DNA of 64,000 bases, from contig JAJTEN010000002.1 of the NCBI GenBank assembly GCA_021298155.1, positions 36,376-100,375 on the forward strand. Reading direction: 5' to 3'. Source of the stretch: Sphingobacteriales bacterium. Lineage in GTDB: Bacteria; Bacteroidota; Bacteroidia; UKL13-3. Shown one piece after another: positions 65 to 15,990 of this stretch. The position numbers were made by a program, and so were the translations under genes. The notes under the pieces are model-generated. The model was not told the DNA's origin, did not search any database, and saw only the letters and a list, made by a program, of their open reading frames with translations. Every line of letters begins with the position of its first letter. The first letter of the stretch is position 1.

Positions 65-1879
65 CTATTGTGTTTTTACTAATTTAACTCGCCCTTGTGT
101 AATGCCATTTCCTACTTGCAACCAATATATGCCGCTTGAAATGCCTGGTAATTGCTTGTTTAAATCTGTTAAATTACCAACAGAAATGATAGATTTTCCA
201 TGAATATCAAATAACTCAAAGGCATTGGGTACAAATGGTAAATCCAATTGTAGTTCATCCAAAATCGGATTGGGATAAACCTTAATCCCCCAGTTACTTT
301 GCTCTAAATCTAGTAAGGCACTTTGAATATCCTTACATGGCTTTTCTTCAATGGCAAAATCATCAAAAAAATACACATCATTTGTATTTGTATTTGGTGC
401 CAACAACATCACCAATTGATCTATGCTGCCGTCTAAAGTATTTGGATCGGGCCTAAGAATTAATTTAAAGGTAAGCTCTTCCCACGACCTAGATTTGGTG
501 GTTTTAGCCTGCAAAACACAACGCCTTCCAATAGGATAATCTTGCCCAGCACGGAGCCTGTTTTCAAAATTGATATTTATCTCTGTACCTACAGGAGCAG
601 TAGTATATAACTTCATTTTTAAAATCAAATTTCCACGCTCAAAATCACTCGCATTTTTTATTGGCATCGCCTTTAACCACAATGCATCATAGGAAACAGC
701 CGAATTTCTATAATACCTATTTACACCGTTACTAGCGTTTACACTGTCTTTTGCCGGATTGGTTATACTCCCAGCAAAGGTTCCTGTGCTACCCACCCAA
801 TATATACTTCTTTGTTTTTCCAAATTATCTATTACTCCTTCGCAGGTATCTGGAAGGGCCCGAACCCATTTTGCTATCTTCTTAGATTTTCCATTATGGG
901 TTATCGTAACAAAAATAGAATCACTTTTTAATCCCCAATCTATTTTAGCCTGATCCAAACTAGCGCCGCTTCTAATACTTGCGCCTGCAGGCACCTCCCA
1001 TAAATAAGTGGCGCCTGGCAATTTTTGTGTGTAAAATATTTGGTTGGTGTCTTTTCGTAAAATAGCATCCGGACCACTAATAAAAATATGTGAAAGATCT
1101 TGATATACGCGAATATAATCTACCTGTAAAGTAGCCGTATCAGGAGTAGTAGCATCAGGATAACCTAAAAAATTACCACCAACTGCTAAGTTCATAATAA
1201 CATGAAAATTTCTATCAAAAGGCCACCAAAAAGGATTGGTATTCACGCGCGTTTTAGTGCTATACAAAATAGTATCTACGTACCACTCAATGGTATTTTC
1301 ATTCCATTGTAAAGTATACACATGAAAATCATTTGCAAAACTTCCATTGCTCAGGGTATAGGTAGTACCCGTGTATCTATTGTTAGGCACATAGGCGCCA
1401 TAATGAATCGTCCCATGCGTTGTTTGCGGTTCTTGACCCTTCGCTTCCATTAAATCTATTTCTCCACTTAATGGCCAAATACCATAATGATTCTCCGAAG
1501 GTAGAAACCACACCGCTGGCCAATATCCTCGTCCAACAGGAATGCGTGCACGTACTTCAATTCTACCAGAGGCAAAATCAACTTTATTTAATGTTCTAAT
1601 GCGGGCAGAGGTATAGGTGTTTGAACCCACCGTTTCTTTTTTAGCAGAAATAGTCAACATACCATTCTGAACCTTCACATTTTCTTGCTTGTAAAATTGG
1701 AGTTCATTATTACCCCAACCGCATAAGTTAGGACATCCATTCCCTATTTGGTAACTCCAAAAATTGGTATCTAAGTTGTTCCCATTAAACTCATCACTCC
1801 AACGCAAAAACGCTTGTGCTTGGCTAAAAATTGGGTTCAAACCAACTATTAAAAATATATATGCTTTTAGGTATTTCAT
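65..1879 (-). CDS. Glycoside hydrolase family 16 (laminarinase/beta-glucanase-like), secreted, with T9SS C-terminal sorting domain
   Basis: GH16 catalytic motif GEIDLMEA, signal peptide, C-terminal VYPNPILDELQLDLP...GIYWLQV...GRVKLVK sorting domain. Confidence 0.93.
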   Translation of the reverse strand: MKYLKAYIFLIVGLNPIFSQAQAFLRWSDEFNGNNLDTNFWSYQIGNGCPNLCGWGNNELQFYKQENVKVQNGMLTISAKKETVGSNTYTSARIRTLNKVDFASGRIEVRARIPVGRGYWPAVWFLPSENHYGIWPLSGEIDLMEAKGQEPQTTHGTIHYGAYVPNNRYTGTTYTLSNGSFANDFHVYTLQWNENTIEWYVDTILYSTKTRVNTNPFWWPFDRNFHVIMNLAVGGNFLGYPDATTPDTATLQVDYIRVYQDLSHIFISGPDAILRKDTNQIFYTQKLPGATYLWEVPAGASIRSGASLDQAKIDWGLKSDSIFVTITHNGKSKKIAKWVRALPDTCEGVIDNLEKQRSIYWVGSTGTFAGSITNPAKDSVNASNGVNRYYRNSAVSYDALWLKAMPIKNASDFERGNLILKMKLYTTAPVGTEININFENRLRAGQDYPIGRRCVLQAKTTKSRSWEELTFKLILRPDPNTLDGSIDQLVMLLAPNTNTNDVYFFDDFAIEEKPCKDIQSALLDLEQSNWGIKVYPNPILDELQLDLPFVPNAFELFDIHGKSIISVGNLTDLNKQLPGISSGIYWLQVGNGITQGRVKLVKTQ

Positions 1880-4161
1880 TGGTTTGTAATAGTTATGTTT
1901 TGACTTAAGGTATCTACTGAAAGTTTAAATGAACCGGGTTCAACGCCCCATTTGTTTGATAGTCCAACAAATGCTAAATGTTGCACAGGTAATTCTATTG
2001 AAACAATTTCACTTGCTCCCGGCCTCAAAAAAATCTTTCGAAATGCCCGCAATTTTTTTACCGAAGGTGTAATACTTGCCACCTCATCTTTACTGTAAAA
2101 CAATGCGGTATGCAAACCCTCCATGTTACCTATATTGCTTATGGTAACATTCATTTTAATGGTATCTGAAAGTGTATAACTTTCTTTATCACAAGTAAAA
2201 TTGCTGTAAACATACCCTGTATAACTAAGGCCTGAACCAAACTCAAACAATGGATTAAAGCCCAATGGTTTAAAATCTTTGTTCAACACCTCCGTATATT
2301 TACAATCGTATGTTAGATGAAAACTCGAATATCTTGGATAGGTAAAGGGTAATTTACCTGAAGGATTAGATAAGCCACATAATACATTTGCTATAGCAGT
2401 TCCACCGGCATCTCCAGGTAAACCTGCAAAAATAATAGCATCACATAAAGACTCGGTGTTAGCAAAGGTTCTAGGCCTTCCTTCCAATAAAACTACAATC
2501 ACCTTTTTCCCTGCTTGCTTATATACTTTAATCAGGTGTTGTTGAGCTGCAGAAAGTTCTAAATCCAATATATCTCCAGGTTTTTCTGTGTAGGTATCTT
2601 CGCCTAAAAATAATACCACTGAAGCTATATTTTTTGCCGCTGCAAGTAATGCTTCATCAGACAAATTGGTATCATAAGTATTACCCGGCAAATAAACCAC
2701 TTTATCCATCCCATGTATGTTTTGCAATGCCTCCAAACATGTTGGAACCTCAGAATTATAAGTGGTATCTCTACCTTGCCAAGTATGTGTCCAACCTCCA
2801 TTTAACGCATTTATATAATGCGCATTGGCACCTGTAACTAAAATCTTTTCAGTTGGAGATAATGGTAAAGCTTGATTTGAATTCTTTAATAAAACTAAAC
2901 TTTGTGTAGCCAATGCCAAGGATAACTCTTTACTTTGGTCTGAACCAATTGAATCATATTTACTGCTATTTGCAGGTGAGTGTTCAAATAAACCAAGTTT
3001 AAATTTAAGGGTTAATATCCGCAAAACAGATTGATTTATGCGCGTCATTGAAATGTTTCCTTCCTTTACATTTTCAATTAGGTAATGCGTAAATAAAGTA
3101 TCTAAGGGAACCATAGCCATATCAATTCCAGCATTAATAGCCACGGCTACCGCTTCTTTATAGGTGGATACTATTTTATGTCGCTCATACAAATTTTTGA
3201 TGTCTTCCCAGTCTGTTACCGTTATCCCTTTAAACTTTAATTCTTCGCGCAAAATAGTTTGTAATAAAAACTTACTGGCATGAACAGGCTCGCCATTTAC
3301 TTCACCAGAGTTTATCATGATAGTTTGTGCGCCAGCCTCAATAGCTTGAGCAAAGGGCGGTAAAAAAATTTCACGCAATTGCCTTTCTGGGATATAAGCA
3401 GGAGTTCTATCCATTCCACTGCGGGCATCTCCATAACCAACATAGTGTTTTAAACAAGCTGCTACTCCAGGTAGTCCATTTTTTGAAGGCATTTGATAGG
3501 CTTTAACCATACTCGAACCTAAGCATGAGGCCACCATTGGATCTTCACCAAATGTTTCCCAGAACCTAGGCCATCTTGGATTTCTAGCTACATCTAAAAC
3601 TGGAGAAAAATTCCAAGCCAAACCACTTGCACGTACATCATTGGCAGTATTGGTAGCCATATCTGCTATCATATCTGTATTAAAACTAGCTGCTAAATTG
3701 ATTTGCTGCGGGTACAGGGTTGCACCTACAGTATAGTTGGCGCCATGTATCGCATCTATCCCATACAAAACGGGTATTTGAAGTCGCGTTTGCATCCGAT
3801 ACGCATGCAAAGCTTCGCTCACTTCTTTCCACTGAGCCAATGTAAAAGTATTACCAGGTACATTTAATATAGAACCTACACCCATTTCTACCAATACTTT
3901 TCTGAGCCTAACAGTATCTAAAGCATGCGGCTTTGTTAAATTAAATTGGTCTTTACCCTGCAAAATCATCTCAATACTAAGCTGTGTCATTTGCCCTGCT
4001 TTCTCTTCCAAACTCATCTCATTTAGAATAGCTTGGGCGCGCTCCTCTGGCAATTTATCTTTGGCCGACTTACACGATGAGATAGCCAATAATAAAGTAA
4101 ATACACCCCAAATAATTTGGTTCGAACCTAATTTTTTTCTAATTGTATATGATCTATCCAT
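1876..4161 (-). CDS. Glycoside hydrolase family 3 beta-glucosidase, lipoprotein
   Basis: GH3 motifs (KHYVGYGDARSGMD, GITVTDWEDI nucleophile region, C-terminal Fn3-like); LLAISSC lipobox; 4-nt overlap with the GH16 gene. Confidence 0.92.
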   Translation of the reverse strand: MDRSYTIRKKLGSNQIIWGVFTLLLAISSCKSAKDKLPEERAQAILNEMSLEEKAGQMTQLSIEMILQGKDQFNLTKPHALDTVRLRKVLVEMGVGSILNVPGNTFTLAQWKEVSEALHAYRMQTRLQIPVLYGIDAIHGANYTVGATLYPQQINLAASFNTDMIADMATNTANDVRASGLAWNFSPVLDVARNPRWPRFWETFGEDPMVASCLGSSMVKAYQMPSKNGLPGVAACLKHYVGYGDARSGMDRTPAYIPERQLREIFLPPFAQAIEAGAQTIMINSGEVNGEPVHASKFLLQTILREELKFKGITVTDWEDIKNLYERHKIVSTYKEAVAVAINAGIDMAMVPLDTLFTHYLIENVKEGNISMTRINQSVLRILTLKFKLGLFEHSPANSSKYDSIGSDQSKELSLALATQSLVLLKNSNQALPLSPTEKILVTGANAHYINALNGGWTHTWQGRDTTYNSEVPTCLEALQNIHGMDKVVYLPGNTYDTNLSDEALLAAAKNIASVVLFLGEDTYTEKPGDILDLELSAAQQHLIKVYKQAGKKVIVVLLEGRPRTFANTESLCDAIIFAGLPGDAGGTAIANVLCGLSNPSGKLPFTYPRYSSFHLTYDCKYTEVLNKDFKPLGFNPLFEFGSGLSYTGYVYSNFTCDKESYTLSDTIKMNVTISNIGNMEGLHTALFYSKDEVASITPSVKKLRAFRKIFLRPGASEIVSIELPVQHLAFVGLSNKWGVEPGSFKLSVDTLSQNITITNQ

Positions 4162-5315
4162 AATTCTCCTTCTTGCAAAAATGTTATCAATAGTTGTTTA
4201 AAATTCTGGGTATTAAATTTAGCCTTATTCCAGTCGAATGCCGACAATGGAATCCGCACTTTTTGCCATTTTTTACCTTGCCTATCTATTTGTTGTAGTT
4301 CACTTAAAAACGACTGATTTAATCCAATATTTACCTGCTCACCTGAATACGATTCAAAACCAATTTGTATCTTATTGAGCTCAGATAAATTAGGCGTATA
4401 AACAAAAAAACTTAGGCTATACGCATCTATAGAATCTGGCAAAGCAATGGCTTGCCAACGTTCCCAATTAAAGCCTATTTGGTTATTAACATGGCTATTT
4501 TTTATAAGATCCCATGATAGGTGTAAGGCAGAAGTCCCCATTAAATAAATTTGGGAATCTAGCTGTATTGTTCTGCCTAAATATGTGCCCAATCCCCATG
4601 CATATTGCATATTGTCTTCAAAAATCAATGCCGGAAATGTTTGGGTAGTGGTTTGGCCAAATTTTTGATTCTTTTTAGCCTTCGCTTTATTTCCTTCTTC
4701 AATAAATATTTCATCTATCAAAATAGCTCCCTCACCCTGACACTCTATATTTAAACTCTTAATATTGCTAAAATCACTTTTTGGTCCAGCAGCCTCTAAA
4801 AACGCAGATAATGGAATAATTACTTTTTGCCATGCTTCATCTATTGGATATCGCTCTAAGTATTTCGCTTTAAACAAGGCAGCAGTTTGTATGCCACTAT
4901 AATCTTCTAATAAAAATATTAAAGTAGGCACAAATTGAGTGCCTTTAATAGCTCGGATATAAAAAGTAATATTTCCATTTTGCATTACCGGTGTAAGGTC
5001 TTTCGCAGCATACCCATTCCACCCAATTCCAAATCCTAACCAGGCACATGATCCAGTTTTATTCCATTGCAATTTAATGCTCGATTTACCTTTATAGGCA
5101 AGCGTATCAATCCTACTAAAATGTTTGCAATCTGTTTTTTCTAAGCCCCAAATATCTGCTGTTTGGTTACTAAAAATTTCCTTATCCGTAAATACTTGTT
5201 GCTTCTCTAGATCATAGGTATTTCCCCACTCATCCACTAAGTTTTGTGTTTGCATATGGATACCACATGCAGACAGAAAAATTAAACACCAAGTGAGATA
5301 ACTGATCCGCTTCAT
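4128..5315 (-). CDS. Lipoprotein with two carbohydrate-binding-like jelly-roll domains
   Basis: Lipobox FLSAC; two similar halves with ...LSFFVYTP.../...ITFYIRA... and WQKVRIPLSAF/WQKVIIPLSAF. Confidence 0.6.
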   Translation of the reverse strand: MKRISYLTWCLIFLSACGIHMQTQNLVDEWGNTYDLEKQQVFTDKEIFSNQTADIWGLEKTDCKHFSRIDTLAYKGKSSIKLQWNKTGSCAWLGFGIGWNGYAAKDLTPVMQNGNITFYIRAIKGTQFVPTLIFLLEDYSGIQTAALFKAKYLERYPIDEAWQKVIIPLSAFLEAAGPKSDFSNIKSLNIECQGEGAILIDEIFIEEGNKAKAKKNQKFGQTTTQTFPALIFEDNMQYAWGLGTYLGRTIQLDSQIYLMGTSALHLSWDLIKNSHVNNQIGFNWERWQAIALPDSIDAYSLSFFVYTPNLSELNKIQIGFESYSGEQVNIGLNQSFLSELQQIDRQGKKWQKVRIPLSAFDWNKAKFNTQNFKQLLITFLQEGELWIDHIQLEKN

Positions 5316-6349
5316 TAGGGTTGAAAGGGTTTATAATAGGTGAAATTTGCAAAATCAATGCCCACTCGCGTAATACCACTTGTACCCGGCTGAGATAATA
5401 ACAAGAATTGAGTAGCAATAATTCTGTCGGGATCCTTCTTGCCTGTTCTATCTACATTACCAAAGCCGCCAGAAGTAGAAATTCGGGTATCTCCGTAAGA
5501 GAAGCTAACCAATTTCCAACCTTGCCAATTAACAGGTAAGCGAAAGTTATACGCGCCCTCTTCCGCAGGCTGATAAATACCATCTTTATTGTCGTCTTCT
5601 TGAAACTCAATACTCAACTCCGCCTTATTATCGCCCCAACCATACACATATGCATTAAAAAAAATATTATTCGGATTTTCAGTGGCAAATGAAAAATAAT
5701 TAGATCCTAAACCCTGACTTACGCGCGCACTCAAGTTCATACCGCATAAAAATAAACTGGCCGTTGGACCTCTATTACCCGCTAATACATAGAATCTTGT
5801 TTTTTCTGTTGGCGAAACTCCTTGGTAATTTACCGATGTTCCATTAAAGGTTTGCTGACCTTCAGTAAAAGTATTGTAAGGCCTTTGCGGACTCTCAAAA
5901 TCGTCTATTAATATATCTACTTTAGGTGTTGGCCGAACATCTGTAATCGTTAGCGTATCAGAATAAATGGTATCGGGATAATTCTCAAATCGCAAGCGAG
6001 CAACACAGGGTTCATTTTTTCTAAAAAAAGGGGCAAAAGTAATGGTACCATCCCAACTAATGGGAAAGGCATTAAAGTCTTTTTCATTGCCAGTAAACGT
6101 TTTTTTAGCACCGCTATTTAAGCCTATTACCTCCATTGTCCATTGTGTTCGAATACTTAATTTACCCTTAAATAGCACCTGTTCTTGGTTCGCAAAATTC
6201 ACCGTTTTTACAGAGGCACGAATAGGTTCAAGCAAAGCAAATTGGCCAAATAAATCAACTAATTCTGGCCCTTCAATTGCTGTATCTTTTTTGCAGCCCA
6301 TGAAAAGAATTAAATAAACCCCAATAAAAATTAACAAAAGCTTTTTCAT
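5315..6349 (-). CDS. Lipoprotein of unknown function, C-terminal jelly-roll-like domain
   Basis: Signal with lipobox LILFMGC; ILIDDFES...WQGWKLVSFSYGD pattern typical of beta-sandwich glycan-binding folds. Confidence 0.5.
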   Translation of the reverse strand: MKKLLLIFIGVYLILFMGCKKDTAIEGPELVDLFGQFALLEPIRASVKTVNFANQEQVLFKGKLSIRTQWTMEVIGLNSGAKKTFTGNEKDFNAFPISWDGTITFAPFFRKNEPCVARLRFENYPDTIYSDTLTITDVRPTPKVDILIDDFESPQRPYNTFTEGQQTFNGTSVNYQGVSPTEKTRFYVLAGNRGPTASLFLCGMNLSARVSQGLGSNYFSFATENPNNIFFNAYVYGWGDNKAELSIEFQEDDNKDGIYQPAEEGAYNFRLPVNWQGWKLVSFSYGDTRISTSGGFGNVDRTGKKDPDRIIATQFLLLSQPGTSGITRVGIDFANFTYYKPFQP

Positions 6350-6353
6350 AGTT

Positions 6354-8075
6354 CTAGAAAAATAAATTATAAAGTACCGAAAGCCTATTTATTCCATATT
6401 GGTTTTGTGGCATTAGCTCATTGTTCCAATTTACCTGTTGCCACTGAATTTTAAGGCAATTATGCTTACTAAATTGATAGTTTAATCCACTTAAAAATAG
6501 GGTTTCTTTTAAATCGTAATTACTTCTTTCATAAAATACAATTTGATTAAACGCATTTCTAGTAGGCATAAATTCATTCCCTTTTGCTTGAACCAATAAC
6601 AAGCCCATTTGTAAATGTAATTTTGGAACTAATTCATAAGATACACCAAGCTTTATCTGACTTGCATTCAATTCTATTTCCTCAATATTTTTTATTCCCT
6701 CACGTTGGGTATTTTGAAGGCGATAAAACACGCTTAGGTTCAGCCTACGTTTGCCATTGTAAAAATGGTTGATATTGCTGTTTGCATCCCATTGAATCTC
6801 TGAAAAATTTCGCAAATTTAGCGTGCCTTGTCCGCTTATTTCATTATAGCGCGCCACACGGATATTGCTTACAAATAAACCTAGTTGTACTTTAGATCTA
6901 AATCCAATTTCTCCTTGTATACCTTGTCTATTTGGCGTTGCATGGCCATAAGGCAAAATATTTTCATAAACAGGATTAAACCCTTGAAGATTGGGAGTTA
7001 AAAATAGGTTATAATAATTTCCATCTGTTAGTATATCTAACATATTGGCAGGTCGCACACTTTCTCTATTGGTATAATATGCGTATTCACTGGCAACTGC
7101 ATTAAAATCTACCCTTCTACTTTGTGCACCCATACTTCTAAAATGGGTTTCTACTCTATTGGCATGCAACTTTACATGCCATACTTTAGACGGATTAAAC
7201 GTTAAACTTGCAGTGGCAAAATTGCCCCTTGGAATATTGGGAGCAGCTAGCATATTTTCATAAGCCACTTTGGAAAAACCAGCCTCGCCACTCAATTTAA
7301 ATTGAAATTGTTTGATAGAAAAACTTTCTGTAAGTCCGAAACTATGCACCGTATTACTAAACCTAGCATCAGAAAACATCGCAGATTCTCTAACATCAAA
7401 AATATGGGCCAAATTATACTGTAATCCCAGATTCTTAAACAGCGTGATGTCGGCACTAGCGCCAGAAAATAGCCGATCTGGCGTACTAAAATAATCGGTT
7501 TGGCGATTTTTGGCAATCATTCCTTTTATTTTCATGGAATTAAATACCTCATTAAACTTAAATCCAAAATCTATCTGCGCACCTTGCTGTCGCCAAGAAT
7601 TTTCTCCATAAAATTTATCATAGGCAATCACTTCCGAAAAAGTGTTTAATGCCTCTGGATTGTGATGCGATAATTCACCTTCAGAATTGTACAAGGTAAA
7701 AGGTGTCATACGGGTATTTAAATCTCCAACTTGGTATTTAAACTTTTTTAACAACAAGCCACGTAAATACAATTCACGCACATTCATTACAATACCTCCT
7801 CCCCAAAACCCATTAATATCATTGGTAACACGCGTTATGGCCTTAATTTCAGTTTCGGCGCTAGGCTTAATATGAAAACCCAAATCAAACAGGGTACTGC
7901 CGCGCATCTGCTTTCTTGGTGTAACCGAATCGGTGTTTAATAAGGCTCCATGTATACTGCCATTATTTAAAGCAAAACGGCCCGATCCAAAAAAATCTAT
8001 TTTCTTTTCTTGGGCCACCAATAGATTGGGTAGCATAAGAAGTATATAGATAAAATAGGTAATGTGTCTTTTCAT
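6354..8075 (-). CDS. Putative outer-membrane beta-barrel protein
   Basis: Signal peptide, alternating amphipathic strands, C-terminal ...RLSVLYNLFF with terminal Phe. Confidence 0.55.
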   Translation of the reverse strand: MKRHITYFIYILLMLPNLLVAQEKKIDFFGSGRFALNNGSIHGALLNTDSVTPRKQMRGSTLFDLGFHIKPSAETEIKAITRVTNDINGFWGGGIVMNVRELYLRGLLLKKFKYQVGDLNTRMTPFTLYNSEGELSHHNPEALNTFSEVIAYDKFYGENSWRQQGAQIDFGFKFNEVFNSMKIKGMIAKNRQTDYFSTPDRLFSGASADITLFKNLGLQYNLAHIFDVRESAMFSDARFSNTVHSFGLTESFSIKQFQFKLSGEAGFSKVAYENMLAAPNIPRGNFATASLTFNPSKVWHVKLHANRVETHFRSMGAQSRRVDFNAVASEYAYYTNRESVRPANMLDILTDGNYYNLFLTPNLQGFNPVYENILPYGHATPNRQGIQGEIGFRSKVQLGLFVSNIRVARYNEISGQGTLNLRNFSEIQWDANSNINHFYNGKRRLNLSVFYRLQNTQREGIKNIEEIELNASQIKLGVSYELVPKLHLQMGLLLVQAKGNEFMPTRNAFNQIVFYERSNYDLKETLFLSGLNYQFSKHNCLKIQWQQVNWNNELMPQNQYGINRLSVLYNLFF

Positions 8076-8076
8076 A

Positions 8077-10002
8077 CTAAAAAAATACTTTAAGTTCTAT
8101 GGTGGTTTCTGTTCCCTTTATCTGGTCTTTTACAAAGCTCTTATCTTGCTGATTAAACCACCTTCTTCGAGCATATAAATAGGTATTGTTGCTTATTCTA
8201 TAATCCATTCCCAATCCAAATAAAGTTCCTTCTTGATTAACCGGATCATTAGCCAAACTCCCCAATATTCCATCCACATTATCACCTCTATTTAGCTGAT
8301 TATTTCCTTTAATATATTCTTTACCATAAGTACTTACCAAACTTAAAGAATTACTCAGTTTAAATATAGCATCTAACTCATGATAATGCGTTCTTAATAG
8401 CGCTTTATTTCCATTTATAGGTATCAGGCTAAAGCCTTCCTGAGCCGAACCAAATGAACCCACGTAGAGCAAATAAAACGGAAGAAATGAATTGTTAATA
8501 TACTGCTTTATTTGAACCTGAAGCATGGTAAAGCCTAATAAAGATTTTGGTAATCCTATACTGTTGGTATCAGTAATAAACATACTTTGAGAGAATCCTC
8601 TGAAATAACTAGTCCAATTGCCATAAGCACCAATATTATTGGTAAACGGACTAAACCTAGAAAAGGGTAAAGCATTTATTTTATGCCCAAACGCAAGCTC
8701 ATTTCCCAAACTTCGTATTTCGGTTGCACACATGTTACCAATGTTTATTTTGCTGGTTTTTGTTATATCAAACCATGCATTTACACTAAATCCTTTTCGA
8801 TTACTACTAACCTGTCCAACGTCGGTAATAGAACCCGCAAAGTTGCTGATACCGCCGCTTCCTCCTAAGGTAGAACCGCTTTGGTTCACGGCAGCAGAAC
8901 TTACAATATTGGTATTGCCGCTTAAAAAATTGCCATAATAATTTATAAACTCCGGACTCACATAAAATCCTTCAAGCTCTATCGGAACAAAGGTATACTT
9001 CTTAGGTGAACGAATACTTAATCGCGCTGCATTCCCCCATCCAGCCTCTTGTACCTCAGAATATAACCTTCCCCTTCCAAATTCTGTAGTTATTTTAAAA
9101 TCCTTAATGGTGCCATCATAGCTTAAGGTGTGCAACTGTATTCCAGCTTCCTCTTTTGCTATAGAATCTGGATACAACCTGTAATCTATAAATTGTGCGC
9201 CAAAAGTATGGTCTCCTAGCTTTTTCCTGATTCTACCTCCCATTGTATAAGAAGGAATTTGATTGGTAAGAAAGGCTTGAGCTGGAGTGGTTCCATATAA
9301 CAAGCGAAGTTCAATATTCCCCGGCAATTCCTGACCATCTACCATCAAACCTCTGAACGGCTGCATACCAAATCGCATGTCTCTGCTAATGTTGCCGTAG
9401 TTATAATAGTTAGAGGCTCGGTCAAATGAAACTTCATTACCTTCCCAAGGCCAACGTTCATAAATACTAAATCTTTGATAGCCAACAAAACTACTAAATA
9501 CCATTCCGCTTAATTCAATCCAATTAATACCGCCCATGTGCGCAGTAAACTTCCCAATATCTGTTTGTATGCTGCCCGTAAGGTTTATTCCCAAATTCAA
9601 ATTCATTGGACTCTCACCTGGCCTACCCGAAAAATTATGGTAGAGGGCGTAATCCATACCAATGTATGTTTTTGAAGTTGGCTGAACCGAAACATTAAGT
9701 AACATCAGCGGAGGATCACGGTATACGTCGCCTGTGCCCAACACAAAAGCTGGCGCACTTGCGTAGGGATTTCCCGGAATAACGATAAACGCTTGTTCTA
9801 AACTTCGATTAATTCCGAAAAAGCGATAGTAGCCCCCAACGCTTAATTTTTTCAATGGTAATATATCTGCCTTGCCCGAGGAAATTGGGCGGTCTTGCAT
9901 ACTCGTATCTTGCTCCTGTGCAGCTACAAAACATGGACCCATCAGGCAAAAAATCACCTGAATGATGTAAAAATAAATGCGCAGCCTGGCTTTCAATGAC
10001 AT
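8077..10002 (-). CDS. Putative outer-membrane beta-barrel protein
   Basis: Signal peptide, amphipathic strand pattern, C-terminal ...TTIELKVFF. Confidence 0.55.
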   Translation of the reverse strand: MSLKARLRIYFYIIQVIFCLMGPCFVAAQEQDTSMQDRPISSGKADILPLKKLSVGGYYRFFGINRSLEQAFIVIPGNPYASAPAFVLGTGDVYRDPPLMLLNVSVQPTSKTYIGMDYALYHNFSGRPGESPMNLNLGINLTGSIQTDIGKFTAHMGGINWIELSGMVFSSFVGYQRFSIYERWPWEGNEVSFDRASNYYNYGNISRDMRFGMQPFRGLMVDGQELPGNIELRLLYGTTPAQAFLTNQIPSYTMGGRIRKKLGDHTFGAQFIDYRLYPDSIAKEEAGIQLHTLSYDGTIKDFKITTEFGRGRLYSEVQEAGWGNAARLSIRSPKKYTFVPIELEGFYVSPEFINYYGNFLSGNTNIVSSAAVNQSGSTLGGSGGISNFAGSITDVGQVSSNRKGFSVNAWFDITKTSKINIGNMCATEIRSLGNELAFGHKINALPFSRFSPFTNNIGAYGNWTSYFRGFSQSMFITDTNSIGLPKSLLGFTMLQVQIKQYINNSFLPFYLLYVGSFGSAQEGFSLIPINGNKALLRTHYHELDAIFKLSNSLSLVSTYGKEYIKGNNQLNRGDNVDGILGSLANDPVNQEGTLFGLGMDYRISNNTYLYARRRWFNQQDKSFVKDQIKGTETTIELKVFF

Positions 10003-10085
10003 TGAATTATGCTGCTAACTTCATCATAATAATTCGAAAAACATTTTTTTTAAACCCTACTCACTTACATCAATCAAATATTATT

Positions 10086-10104
10086 CTACTACATTGCTAC
10101 TACA
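10086..10104. promoter_or_regulatory. Candidate operator CTACTACA-ttg-CTACTACA (direct repeat, 11-nt period)
   Basis: Exact tandem octamer upstream of the 8077..10002 gene; same arrangement at 15972-15990. Confidence 0.6.
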
Positions 10105-10194: not shown

Positions 10195-13053
10195 ATGCCA
10201 AAAAAAGGGATATATTTACTATTTTATTGTTTCGTGCTTGGCATACTAAAACTGGCATCACAACCCATCAATACAGCTCCCTTGGTTAAAAACTATACCA
10301 AACAAATGTATCAAGGTGGAACACAAACTTGGGACATTTGTGAAGATCATAAAGGGCTAGTTTTCTTTGCAAATAATAATGGACTACTCCTTTTCGATGG
10401 ACGAGCATTTACTAATTTTCCATTACCCGGTAAAACCATTCTTCGTTCTATTTTATATGATTCTATCTCTCACAGAATTTATGCTGGTGGGCAAAATGAA
10501 ATAGGATATTATGGATATACCGAAAGTGGCAACTTACATTTCGTTTCCCTCGCTCATTTACTCCCCAAAGAATATAAAGGTTTTGAAGATGTTTGGACCA
10601 TTTTACAGAAAAATGGAATCATCTACTTTCAAACCAGTAAAACCATTTTTGCATTTCAAAATAATAAAATGAGTTTGCTAAAACCTAGCGAACAATCGCT
10701 AGAAAAAATGCAAATAGCCAATCAAAAACTATACGTTTATGATGCTGCTGGCGCCGTTTTTGAACTTGAAAATATCGCTTTTAAACAAATTATTCCAGCT
10801 AGCAACTTAGACATATCCGCAATCGTTGATTTAAATAGCCAAACCCTACTTATTTGTACCTATAAAAATGGCTTGTTTGTTTACAAAAACAATATCCTGA
10901 GTAAAGCACCTTTCAATGATGAAGAATTGAAAAATTTTAGGATATATAGGGCCTGTAAATATGGTAATAAAATTGTAATCGGAACAAGCAGATCTGGTAT
11001 TTTCTTTCTAGATGAAAATGGCAACATAATCTCTAAAATGAATATTCAAACCGGACTCCAAAACAACAATGTGCTGAGTTTATTCGCAGATAAAAATAAT
11101 AATCTTTGGCTCGGCCTAGATAATGGAATTGATTTACTACGACTTAATTATCCTTTTGCATACATTTACCCCGACGGCATTTTAAAGGGTACTGGCTACT
11201 CTATGACCAATTTCCAAGGTAAAGATTACTTTGGAACAAATAACGGACTATATGAACACCTGGCAGGCGAAAATTTTAAACTGATAAAAAATACAGAAGG
11301 TCAAGTCTGGAGCGTTCAACAAATTCAACAAAAACTATTTGTTTCACACCATGAAGGCTTGTTTGAAGTAATCGCAAATGAAGCCATCAAAATTGCAGAC
11401 ATTAGGGGCTGTTGGAAAATTTTAGAATTAAAAAATAAGCCTGGCTACTTTATAGTTGGTACCTATAATGGTATTAGTGTCTACAAATGGACTAACAATA
11501 GCTTATCATTTGTAGCTAAGCCTTCAAACTTCAAAGAATCTAGCCGCTTTATTGAGGAAGATGAAAACGGAAATATTTGGGTAGGTCACCCCTATAAAGG
11601 CCTCTACAAACTAACATTAAATTCAAATTTTACGCAAATTCTAGAAGCTAAGCGGTATGGAAAAGCCCAAAAACTACCGGCTGAAACAGAGAATTTAGTA
11701 TTTAACTTAGGTAATGGCATTTGCTTTACCAGTAATGAGGGTGTATTTCAATACAATTCGGCTTTAGATGGCTTTGAACCCATTAAAATATTTGGGGGGA
11801 TATTTAATAAAAATCAAAACTATAAGCGAATCATTCCGGGTAAAAACGGCAAGTTATGGGTTATTCAAAATCAAGAAATTTCATTTATTAAACAATCCTA
11901 CAATGGGGTAGATTATTCTTATGAGAAAAAAGCTATCCCAAAAATGGATCAAAATTTAGTTGGTGGTTTCGAATTCTTGCAAGAATGCGAAGGAGATAAT
12001 CTTTTTCTTGGAGTAGAAACTGGTTTTATGAAACTCAATTTGAAGCAAATGGAAACATTTGTCTTAGACCCGCCAAAGGTTATTATAACTCAAATAAACG
12101 GACTCACCTTGGCAGATAGTTCGTACTTTAAATGGATTGATAATACAACACCAAAATATAGCATTCCAGATCGGTCTATCGAATTTTGGTTCAGCTCAAC
12201 GAATGGAAACTTTTATAATGATTTAAGCTTTTCAACCTATTTAGCCGGATGGGATAAAACCTGGACGCCTTATAAAACAAGCAACAGCAGAGAGTTTAGC
12301 AGGCTATCATACGGAGATTATACGCTTCATGTAAAAGCGAAATGTATGGGTGTAGAGGGCCCGCCATTATTGCTAAAATTTAGTATTCCCGCTCCTTGGT
12401 ATTGGAGCACTATAGCGAAAGTATTTTATGCTCTTTTTGCTATTCTTAGTATTTTACTGATTGGTTTTTACCCGCAGCGACTTGTTCGAAAAAAAGCTAG
12501 CCGAATTATAGCCGAGAAGCAAGACCAATTTAACAAACAACGTGCAGATTTATTGCTGGAAAAAGAACATAAAGAAAAAGAATTAATTGCCCTCAAAAAC
12601 CAACAATTGCAAATTGAATTGGAACATCAAGGCAGAGAATTGGCTTCTTCCACTATGCACATCGTTCAAAAGAGTGAAATGCTCTTGAGCATCAAGGAAA
12701 AACTCAAAAAAATCAATAACCTCAGCAACGACCCAAAGATAAAACCAGAAATGAGTGAGCTCATTAAAACCATTGAGAAAGACACCCTCATTGATAAAGA
12801 CTGGGAAAAGTTTGAACTCTACTTTAATCAAGTTCATAATAGTTTTACCCAAAGTTTAAAATTACGTTTCCCGAGTTTATCTGCAAACGACATCAAAATG
12901 TGCTCTTATTTGCGGATGAATTTATCTACCAAAGAAATCGCGTCTATACTCAATATTACCACGCGAGGGGTAGAAGTAAGCAGATATCGCCTGAGAAAGA
13001 AAATGGGCTTAGAAAATGGGGCAAATATTGGCGACTTTCTGAGCCAATTATAA
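10195..13053 (+). CDS. Membrane-anchored transcriptional regulator: beta-propeller sensor, Y_Y_Y domain, TM helix, coiled coil, LuxR-type HTH
   Basis: Repeated propeller blades (NNNLWLGLDNGIDLL, NGNIWVGHPYKGLYKL), WDKTWTPYKTSNSREFSRLSYGDYTLHVKA, TM near 12400-12470, terminal HTH LSTKEIASILNITTRGVEVSRYRLRKKMGL. ORF opens at 10171; the Met at 10195 precedes the signal sequence. Confidence 0.85.
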   Translation: MPKKGIYLLFYCFVLGILKLASQPINTAPLVKNYTKQMYQGGTQTWDICEDHKGLVFFANNNGLLLFDGRAFTNFPLPGKTILRSILYDSISHRIYAGGQNEIGYYGYTESGNLHFVSLAHLLPKEYKGFEDVWTILQKNGIIYFQTSKTIFAFQNNKMSLLKPSEQSLEKMQIANQKLYVYDAAGAVFELENIAFKQIIPASNLDISAIVDLNSQTLLICTYKNGLFVYKNNILSKAPFNDEELKNFRIYRACKYGNKIVIGTSRSGIFFLDENGNIISKMNIQTGLQNNNVLSLFADKNNNLWLGLDNGIDLLRLNYPFAYIYPDGILKGTGYSMTNFQGKDYFGTNNGLYEHLAGENFKLIKNTEGQVWSVQQIQQKLFVSHHEGLFEVIANEAIKIADIRGCWKILELKNKPGYFIVGTYNGISVYKWTNNSLSFVAKPSNFKESSRFIEEDENGNIWVGHPYKGLYKLTLNSNFTQILEAKRYGKAQKLPAETENLVFNLGNGICFTSNEGVFQYNSALDGFEPIKIFGGIFNKNQNYKRIIPGKNGKLWVIQNQEISFIKQSYNGVDYSYEKKAIPKMDQNLVGGFEFLQECEGDNLFLGVETGFMKLNLKQMETFVLDPPKVIITQINGLTLADSSYFKWIDNTTPKYSIPDRSIEFWFSSTNGNFYNDLSFSTYLAGWDKTWTPYKTSNSREFSRLSYGDYTLHVKAKCMGVEGPPLLLKFSIPAPWYWSTIAKVFYALFAILSILLIGFYPQRLVRKKASRIIAEKQDQFNKQRADLLLEKEHKEKELIALKNQQLQIELEHQGRELASSTMHIVQKSEMLLSIKEKLKKINNLSNDPKIKPEMSELIKTIEKDTLIDKDWEKFELYFNQVHNSFTQSLKLRFPSLSANDIKMCSYLRMNLSTKEIASILNITTRGVEVSRYRLRKKMGLENGANIGDFLSQL

Positions 13054-13122: not shown

Positions 13123-15870
13123 TTATTCTACTACCAATTTTACTGTTTTAACAGATTGGTTCATAGAAACCTTAACAAGGTAAATTCCTTTTTCTAAGCC
13201 TTCAATTGGCAATGCATATTCAAGTTTACCCGCAGCTAAATTACTTTGCTTAGTTACACTTGATCCAAGTAAATTGAAAATTTCAATGCTTAACGGCATG
13301 TTAGATTCTTTTGGTAAACTCAATGTAAACATGCCAGAAGCTGGATTTGGATAAATAGACAATCCACCCAATACTTGCTCTTCCATACCAATTACCTCAC
13401 AAATTGTACAGGTATTCCAGCAATACGCACCCACCTTTACAGCAGAAGAATCACTGATTCTAACAAAACGATTGGTAAATGTGCCTGTAGTTCTTGTACA
13501 TGGATCGCCAGGGTTGAACTTCTCATCATCCACCCAATTGCCTATCGTATATTTAAACTCATAGCTACCAGTATCTAATCTTAATTTTACTTCATAAATA
13601 TTATTCCCTACCAATGTCATTGGCGTGCAATCTCCACACCAGCCATTAAATGAGCCATTTAGTGTTACACCTTTGCTCAAATCTCCCACGTAATCTTTCA
13701 TGTTAACCCTGAAAGTTACCATTGATCTTGGTGCGGTCTTATCACAAGTTACACAGCTTTCCCAACAAACAAGTGGTAAGGTATCCTGCGGCTTGTTAGC
13801 TACTTTAAAAGTACGATTGGTGAAACCAAAAGCAGTTCTTGTACATGAACTTCCCTCAACTAAAATTTCTTGTGCCTTCCAGTTGCCAATTGCATATTTA
13901 AAATCATAGCTAGAATCTTTGTCTAATAATACTGTAGCCATCCAAATATTGCTTGATCCTTGCTTTGTCATTGGTGTACAATTGCCACACCAGCCATTAA
14001 AGGTTCCATTAAGCGTTACGGTATCTGTTGCAGATAAATTATATTTAGACATATCTACTTGGAAACTTACATTAGATTTAGTAACAGCGCCACCCGAACA
14101 AGCAGAACAAGATTCCCAACAAACTGGTGCTAAATTGATATCACTATTCAAAGTATTTAAAACCCTGTTGGTATTAACTCCTGTAGTTTTTGTACATGGT
14201 AATGTGGTAGCCAAAGATTCCTGACTTACCCAATTGCCAATCGTATACTTGTATTCATACTCGGTGTTTTTATCCAAAGGAATGGTAATCGTCCATGATG
14301 AGGTGCCTGGTATTTTTGTCATTTTTGCACATGCACCACACCAGCCATTAAAAGTTCCGTTTATAGTAACTGTATCGCTTGCTGTTAAGGGTAGGTTCTT
14401 AACATCTACCGTAAAGGTTACATTTACTTTAACAGGCGGTGGCGGTGTAATGCCTGAACCAAACTTCACGTCGTCAAAATAATAAGTCTTCTCTCCAGCT
14501 GTTTGGCCAGTTGTTCCGAAATTAAAGAAGATAGACAACATCTTGTAGGTATAGGTAAAATTGATAGGTGCAGTAGCTGTAACTTGATTTGCAAAATCAA
14601 AATCTAAAACTTCCCAAGAACCAGCTGTCTTAGTTCTAGCCTCTGTTTCTACACTTTTTGTTGGATCAGTAGGATCTTCTGCCTTCAATCTCACTGCAAT
14701 TCCACTGTCTGGCGACCAAACTCTAACATTTAATTTAGTAGACCCACTTACAAATGGAATAGCTTCTGCCAAACCAGTACTTGGGTTCATAGTAGTTCCT
14801 GCCCATAACTGAGCAGTATTGGTTTTTATTACTTTAACTACTTTGTTCAGACTATTGGTTGGATCAGTAACAATACTGCTTGCATTGCCTCCAAAATCAG
14901 CCAATACGTAATTCACATTACTTGAATCAAAGGTAATCGGTAATTTAACAGTTTGAAGCACAGGTGCACTCGGTGGCAACATTCTTACATTATCAAAATA
15001 ATATGTTTTTTCACCCGCAATGGCACCGGTTGTACCAAAATTAAAAAATACAGACAATTTGTTGTAAGCAAAAGTAAAGTTAATAGCAGGAGTTCCACTT
15101 GATTGATTTGTAAAGTCAAACTCTAAATCTTGCCAAACATTTGCCGCTGTTGTGCGTGTATCTGTTTCTACACTTTTGTTGGCATCGCTCGACATTTCAG
15201 CCTTAAGCTTCACCACTATTCCGCTATCTGGCGACCAAACACGAATTTTCATCTTGGTGGCATTACTTGCAAAAGGAATTGAGTTGTTAAACCCTGAACC
15301 TAAGCTTGTTCCAGCCCACGCTTGGGCAGAATTGGTTTTAATAACCTTGGCAACTTTGTTGCTTGAATCAGTTGGATCAACCACAACTGAACTTGCATTA
15401 CCTCCAAAATCCAACAAATTGTAATTTACATTACTGCTATCAAAATTAATGGGTAAGGTCATAGCCTGCAAGGTTGGACAAGCTGAACAAGAGTTCCAAC
15501 ATACCAATGACATGGTTGTATCTGCAGTAACAGTAACTTTACGGTTAGTAAATGTGCCTGAAGTTACTGTACAAGGAGAGCCACTTGCGAGCGACTCTTG
15601 TGCATTCCAACCGCCAATTGTGTATTTAAATTCATGATTTCCAGAAGGAATTGAAAAGGTGCCCTGCCAAACATTGGTAGTCCCTTGCTTTACCAAAGGA
15701 TTACATCTTCCACACCACGAATTCCAAGTTCCATTCACATAAACTGTATCATTTAAGTTTTGATACTGAGACATGTCTACCCTAAAGGTAACATTGAAGC
15801 TTTGTGCTTTTACTGCCCCGTAGGTTAGCAATAAAAGCATAAACATCGTCCATTTTGTAAAATTTCGCAT
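13123..15870 (-). CDS. Secreted multi-module protein: four six-cysteine glycogen-binding-like modules, two DFGGN modules, T9SS C-terminal domain
   Basis: Signal peptide MRNFTKWTMFMLLLLTYGAVKAQ (the start at 15870 is preferred over the ORF start at 15930); repeated FNVTFRVDMS..NGTFNGWCGxC..FKYTIGNW..CW.SC..C modules; C-terminal YPNPASGMFTLSLP...GIYLVKVS sorting domain. Confidence 0.85.
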   Translation of the reverse strand: MRNFTKWTMFMLLLLTYGAVKAQSFNVTFRVDMSQYQNLNDTVYVNGTWNSWCGRCNPLVKQGTTNVWQGTFSIPSGNHEFKYTIGGWNAQESLASGSPCTVTSGTFTNRKVTVTADTTMSLVCWNSCSACPTLQAMTLPINFDSSNVNYNLLDFGGNASSVVVDPTDSSNKVAKVIKTNSAQAWAGTSLGSGFNNSIPFASNATKMKIRVWSPDSGIVVKLKAEMSSDANKSVETDTRTTAANVWQDLEFDFTNQSSGTPAINFTFAYNKLSVFFNFGTTGAIAGEKTYYFDNVRMLPPSAPVLQTVKLPITFDSSNVNYVLADFGGNASSIVTDPTNSLNKVVKVIKTNTAQLWAGTTMNPSTGLAEAIPFVSGSTKLNVRVWSPDSGIAVRLKAEDPTDPTKSVETEARTKTAGSWEVLDFDFANQVTATAPINFTYTYKMLSIFFNFGTTGQTAGEKTYYFDDVKFGSGITPPPPVKVNVTFTVDVKNLPLTASDTVTINGTFNGWCGACAKMTKIPGTSSWTITIPLDKNTEYEYKYTIGNWVSQESLATTLPCTKTTGVNTNRVLNTLNSDINLAPVCWESCSACSGGAVTKSNVSFQVDMSKYNLSATDTVTLNGTFNGWCGNCTPMTKQGSSNIWMATVLLDKDSSYDFKYAIGNWKAQEILVEGSSCTRTAFGFTNRTFKVANKPQDTLPLVCWESCVTCDKTAPRSMVTFRVNMKDYVGDLSKGVTLNGSFNGWCGDCTPMTLVGNNIYEVKLRLDTGSYEFKYTIGNWVDDEKFNPGDPCTRTTGTFTNRFVRISDSSAVKVGAYCWNTCTICEVIGMEEQVLGGLSIYPNPASGMFTLSLPKESNMPLSIEIFNLLGSSVTKQSNLAAGKLEYALPIEGLEKGIYLVKVSMNQSVKTVKLVVE
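13399..13725 (-). repeat. Six-cysteine module copy 4
   Basis: SMVTFRVNMKDY...GSFNGWCGDCTPM...CWNTCTIC. Confidence 0.7.
13744..14079 (-). repeat. Six-cysteine module copy 3
   Basis: SNVSFQVDMSKY...GTFNGWCGNCTPM...CWESCVTC. Confidence 0.7.
14098..14433 (-). repeat. Six-cysteine module copy 2
   Basis: VKVNVTFTVDVKN...GTFNGWCGACAKM...CWESCSAC. Confidence 0.7.
14461..14952 (-). repeat. DFGGN module copy 2
   Basis: LPITFDSSNVNYVLADFGGNASSIV...EKTYYFDDVKF. Confidence 0.75.
14983..15465 (-). repeat. DFGGN module copy 1
   Basis: INFDSSNVNYNLLDFGGNASSVV...EKTYYFDNVR. Confidence 0.75.
15478..15801 (-). repeat. Six-cysteine module copy 1
   Basis: SFNVTFRVDMSQY...GTWNSWCGRCNPL...CWNSCSAC. Confidence 0.7.
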
Positions 15871-15971
15871 AGTTTTTTTAATTATTGGTGTAAAAATAAC
15901 CCCGAACCAAGCCTCACACAAATTTACCAACCCTACAATACTTTCACTTAATAACTATACGAAAAAACAAA

Positions 15972-15990
15972 CTACTACAATACTACTACA
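15972..15990. promoter_or_regulatory. Candidate operator CTACTACA-ata-CTACTACA (direct repeat, 11-nt period)
   Basis: Same tandem octamer and spacing as at 10086-10104, about 100 nt upstream of the start at 15870. Confidence 0.6.

Follow-up and report, generated by a model that had tools for sequence, protein, structure and literature searches.

A phased tandem-repeat operator predicted for a membrane-anchored LuxR-type regulator at a glucan locus of a Sphingobacteriales bacterium

Introduction

Which protein, if any, reads a short tandem repeat that stands in the same form upstream of a glucan operon and of a gene for a secreted CBM48 protein? The question is raised by a stretch of 64,000 nucleotides from contig JAJTEN010000002.1 of a Sphingobacteriales bacterium (assembly GCA_021298155.1; the whole stretch is hereafter called the window), in which a gene for a sensor-like regulator sits between the operon and the CBM48 gene (Table 1). 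In a preliminary description, the repeat was proposed to be a candidate operator and was linked, by inference, to this regulator with a LuxR-type helix-turn-helix (HTH) domain. The present analysis supports both the proposal and the link, the sites being rare, located upstream of glycan genes and placed beside relatives of the regulator throughout the class.

Results

Both exact copies of CTACTACA-N3-CTACTACA are observed where the preliminary description had placed them, at 10086-10104 and 15972-15990, and the distance of 84 nt between position 10086 and the start codon of the first glucan-operon gene (10002) was also reproduced. On the gene strand, the two copies read TGTAGTAG-N3-TGTAGTAG, each in the same orientation toward its downstream minus-strand gene. 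The second copy lies 102 nt upstream of the ATG at 15870, most likely the true start of the CBM48 gene, the TTG at 15930 of the listed open reading frame (13123..15930) being probably wrong; the proximal pair of this promoter (O2, below) coincides with that false start. The preliminary description would have been refuted by a motif common at random positions, but a scan of the 2.50-Mb genome (71 contigs) with up to 2 mismatches returned these two sites only, flanking the regulator gene. From base composition, 0.003 exact sites and 3.0 sites at ≤2 mismatches are expected per genome; within the 64-kb window, 2 matches at ≤3 mismatches are found versus 0.24 expected from shuffles.

Each exact copy (O1) is the distal member of a two-pair array, in which a weaker second pair (O2) lies nearer the promoter. 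The O2 pairs of the window are weak by profile score (2.8 and −8.9), that of the CBM48 gene failing on score alone, and both remain putative, resting on orthologue alignment and geometry. Because an automatic rescan of the CBM48 promoters mostly settled on a register shifted by 3 bp (39 rather than 42), the assignment of the CBM48 O2 rests on the aligned footprint. The candidate −7 box of the glucan operon was placed by analogy with TAnnTTTR elements found at 31-32 nt in other loci. The preliminary description mentions neither the proximal pair nor the helical phasing, and it covers neither the constant distance to the promoter nor the conservation throughout the family.

Table 1. Genes, predicted operator pairs and candidate −7 boxes in the window.
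Feature	Position	Strand	Remarks
Operon gene, GH16 glucanase	65..1879	−	Weak match to type IX sorting tail
Operon gene, GH3 glycosidase	1876..4161	−	Pfam
Operon gene, CBM30-domain protein	4128..5315	−	Pfam
Operon gene, 344-aa protein	5315..6349	−	No Pfam family
Operon gene, 573-aa protein	6354..8075	−	No Pfam family
Operon gene 1, 641-aa protein	8077..10002	−	No Pfam family
Candidate −7 box, glucan operon	10015..10022	−	GAAGTTAG, poor match to TAnnTTTG; 31 nt past O2
O2, proximal pair, glucan operon	10054..10072	−	TGATGTAA-GTG-AGTAGGGT on gene strand; 32 bp from O1; footprint and spacing conserved in orthologues; weak by profile score alone
O1, distal operator pair, glucan operon	10086..10104	−	TGTAGTAG-N3-TGTAGTAG on gene strand
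Membrane-anchored regulator	10195..13053	+	N-terminal hydrophobic segment, beta-propeller sensor, Y_Y_Y, transmembrane helix, coiled coil, LuxR-type HTH
Secreted protein, repeated CBM48/AMPK1_CBM modules and type IX sorting tail	13123..15870	−	Likely start ATG 15870
Candidate −7 box, CBM48 gene	15891..15898	−	TATTTTTA (TAnnTTTR); 31 nt past O2
O2, proximal pair, CBM48 gene	15930..15948	−	Degenerate; 42 bp from O1; footprint conserved in orthologues
O1, distal operator pair, CBM48 gene	15972..15990	−	Exact copy

In the regulator protein, the GerE domain (PF00196; 28.6 bits against a cut-off of 23.5) and Reg_prop are above the Pfam cut-offs, the Y_Y_Y match is just under its cut-off, and a signal-like N-terminal segment and a single transmembrane helix are present, while no histidine kinase, receiver or AraC domain is among the Pfam matches. 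In the structure model (mean pLDDT 81.5), propellers and a beta domain at the position of Y_Y_Y are followed by the membrane helix, then by a coiled coil and, at the C-terminus, a helical DNA-binding part. The sensor portion of the model has the fold of HTCS sensors, BT4663 (4a2l) for example being matched with a TM-score of 0.71 on the target. The recognition helix NISVRGVEISRYRLRKKL is near-invariant among the homologues having the site, and helices without RG(V/I)E are found in 4 of 53 homologues with the site versus 9 of 24 without it (Fisher 0.002). This pattern would fit direct recognition of the site, with a contribution from shared descent.

Conservation of the sites was observed in close relatives. 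Within the genus, the motif (≤1 mismatch) is present in 11 of 19 genomes, with no reversed-pattern matches; within the taxonomic family, it is present in 23 of 66 genomes, and a relative of the regulator in 29. Both occur together in 22 of the 66 family genomes, the regulator alone in 7, the site alone in 1 and neither in 36 (Fisher 1.7e-10, uncorrected for kinship), and most of the regulator-only genomes have weaker copies at the same positions. Nearly all relatives that retain the adjacent Reg_prop/Y_Y_Y/LuxR-HTH regulator keep the site at both promoters, some matches being weaker, and the motif persists in relatives whose regulator shares only 53-60% identity and whose spacer sequence around the motif has diverged. 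In two relatives, a gene for a secreted glucanase with GH81 and CBM6 domains (L044 6559-9849; L049 9932-13219) has its own exact operator copy upstream, which points to beta-1,3-glucan; the L049 gene adjoins a further cluster of GH16-like genes. At L066 and L067, a regulator with 33% identity has the same arrays beside an ECF-sigma-like gene, not glucan genes. More distant paralogues of the same family (HTH mostly 33-47% identical) have no site at ≤2 mismatches. The family sites L038 and L051 fall within coding regions and were discounted as chance matches.

The element is not specific to one clade, and recurs beside this type of sensor across many Bacteroidota. A regulator scan of named genomes gave 77 homologue loci, nearly all with 31-35% identity. 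When CTACWWCA-N3-CTACWWCA was sought within 400 nt upstream at 75 homologue loci, 19, 23 and 32 matches (0, 1 and 2 mismatches, respectively) were found on the regulator strand versus 0, 0 and 1 on the opposite strand; N3 is the only enriched spacing, period-3 self-overlap aside, and the half-site consensus of 84 copies is C T A C A/T T/A C A. No site was found at 24 of the 77 loci. Matches to the reversed pattern and to N0/N6, which at first resembled a failed control, were reread as self-overlap of the motif with a shift of 2 bp (reversed) or 3 bp (N0/N6).

The strongest test of the linkage to the regulator family is a site search made without use of the regulator. About 100 random genomes of the same class contain 20 exact sites, of which 19 adjoin a regulator gene of the same family; nine of these 19 are orthologous loci of one genus, so that about ten genera are independent. 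None of the six exact sites in about 300 genomes of other classes adjoins such a regulator. The 22 named genomes contain 15 sites, 13 of them adjoining such a regulator, including paralogues not used for the choice of genomes; in Dyadobacter and Parapedobacter, the additional sites stand next to other paralogues. One site of the class sample (L193) has no regulator nearby, and two Paraflavitalea sites stand away from any detected regulator. At the Paraflavitalea loci L161 and L174, two-pair arrays with a distance of 55 bp precede, by about 90-120 nt, the gene for a protein of about 430 aa with a signal-like N-terminus, and these arrays without a nearby regulator suggest action in trans.

The alternative that survives best, though we consider it improbable, is that the element is the operator of a different regulator, e.g., a response regulator of the OmpR/PhoB type controlling glycan loci generally. 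Such proteins usually target an 11-bp direct repeat, and tandem repeats with this period are unusual for a LuxR-type HTH. However, the sites track the Reg_prop/Y_Y_Y/LuxR family in the random genomes of the class, as described above, and they remain next to the regulator even at loci with another target operon (L065-L067, SusC-type targets). The membrane-anchored regulator encoded beside the sites is the reading that we prefer.

The spacing within the arrays and the distance to the promoter are likewise observed to follow a pattern. Pair-to-pair distances cluster at 32-33, 42-43, 52-55 and 64 bp, mostly corresponding to 3, 4, 5 or 6 helical turns, with a few loci off this pattern (49, 61 and 72 bp). 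The phase concentration is 0.93 at a 10.5-bp period (35 loci, many of them related; three misfits left out); the 12 loci that remain when the 52-55 class is dropped also give 0.93, at a period of 10.6 bp. At 23 of 42 loci, the distance from the proximal pair to the start of a TAnnTTTR element downstream is exactly 31 nt; among 23 loci kept out of the derivation of this rule, 8 have the element at 31-32 nt. The known −7 consensus is TAnnTTTG (PMC7366714). At 17 loci among L071-L147, the interval between the proximal pair and the −7 box holds a single extra half-site, TGNNGTAG, at 13 or 16 nt from the pair.

A different arrangement is found at L181-L192 (probably Flavobacteriaceae), where the distal pair is inverted and 95 or 101 bp from the proximal pair; at these probably Flavobacteriaceae loci, the proximal pair points at SusC wherever one was found. 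Four of the class-level exact sites point away from SusC. Three of the four have a second, promoter-nearer pair that points at SusC, indicating that the exact site there is the distal arm of an inverted array; the fourth (L180) is not accounted for in this way.

These geometrical data bear on another possibility, namely that the repeat serves glycan operons at large as a promoter or RNA element, independently of any one regulator. The closeness of the element to start codons and to the −7 box would suit such a role, yet we hold it to be very unlikely, since the 22 named genomes (4-9 Mb) contain only 0-3 exact sites each, far below the number of glycan operons expected, the site precedes the −7 box and is therefore not part of the transcript, and the copies keep a helical phase not needed by an RNA element. 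A chance repeat, or retention by recent common descent, may practically be dismissed in spite of the AT-rich, low-complexity sequence (CTA repeats), as the exact sites far exceed the number expected per genome, persist next to considerably diverged regulators and spacers, and are linked to one regulator family.

Discussion

The results described above make it very probable, as far as genome comparison allows, that the repeat is the operator of the regulator encoded at 10195..13053, which would be a one-component, membrane-anchored activator acting on the two-pair arrays of the glucan operon and the CBM48 gene, although its binding is inferred. In the predicted mechanism, a periplasmic propeller sensor is connected by one transmembrane helix and a coiled coil to the cytoplasmic LuxR-type HTH, and two HTH domains, spaced by one helical turn, would bind TGWWGTAG-N3-TGWWGTAG in head-to-tail orientation. 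At each target promoter, the proximal O2 would be occupied about 31 nt upstream of the −7 box and the distal O1 whole helical turns above O2, bringing the subunits to the same side of the DNA; the stoichiometry of two HTH dimers per promoter is inferred. Upon binding of a beta-glucan oligosaccharide, likewise an inferred ligand, by the sensor, the array may recruit polymerase to both target promoters. Activation rather than repression is also inferred, the fixed promoter distance and the integral number of turns being the geometry needed by a DNA-bound activator that contacts polymerase. The lack of binding or expression data, the inverted distal pairs, the homologue loci without a site, the sites without a regulator nearby (L193 and the two in Paraflavitalea), the weak O2 pairs of the window and the usual preference of LuxR-type domains for inverted repeats count against this interpretation.

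It is worth comparing the predicted system with those already known. LuxR-type domains usually bind inverted repeats. The window regulator has the GerE domain in common with LuxR/GerE-type HTH regulators, but an inverted-repeat operator, common in this family though not strictly defining it, is not met; the half-sites are direct repeats at N3, for which head-to-tail binding is predicted. We found no published operator for this Reg_prop/Y_Y_Y/LuxR-HTH class in the literature, SusR box sequences not having been compared.

The SusR-like regulators of Bacteroides (SusR BT3705 and SusR2 BT3091) are membrane-anchored activators of glycan loci; for their operators, Ravcheev et al. 2013 (PMC3878776) predicted two direct-repeat boxes that face the same side of the DNA at a distance of 67 or 77 bp, equal to six or seven turns. 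The window system is alike in comprising a putative membrane-anchored glycan-locus activator and two direct-repeat boxes, whereas each box is itself a TGWWGTAG pair at an 11-bp period, the boxes are 3-6 turns apart, and the spacing of 67 or 77 bp is not met by any of the distance clusters. The window operator may be regarded as being of the same style as the SusR-like predictions with a different number of turns, its relation to SusR remaining undecided.

The window sensor resembles those of HTCS regulators, whereas SusR-like and HTCS regulators have been called structurally unrelated (PMC6874557). The periplasmic sensor fold is common to the window regulator and HTCS with Reg_prop/Y_Y_Y sensors (e.g., BT4663), but the HTCS chain has a histidine kinase, a receiver and an AraC domain, in place of which the window regulator has a LuxR-type HTH. 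The spacing of HTCS operators is 21 bp on average (PMC3878776).

A far more tentative extension, which we regard as possible but doubtful, is that the whole class-wide sensor family, even the paralogues within one Dyadobacter genome, uses one near-invariant recognition helix and one operator made of two phased TGWWGTAG-N3-TGWWGTAG pairs. If so, the specificity of the paralogues would not come from the DNA sequence and might be achieved, for example, by action limited to the neighborhood of the membrane-tethered regulator's own gene; the operator code opens to experiment the question of how cross-talk is prevented between paralogues that share a DNA site. It also comes with a rule of promoter layout, namely about 31 nt to the −7 box and whole helical turns between the pairs. 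With such a code, regulons would become readable from genome sequence, and the glycan genes under each sensor, including the distant GH81 gene, may be predicted.
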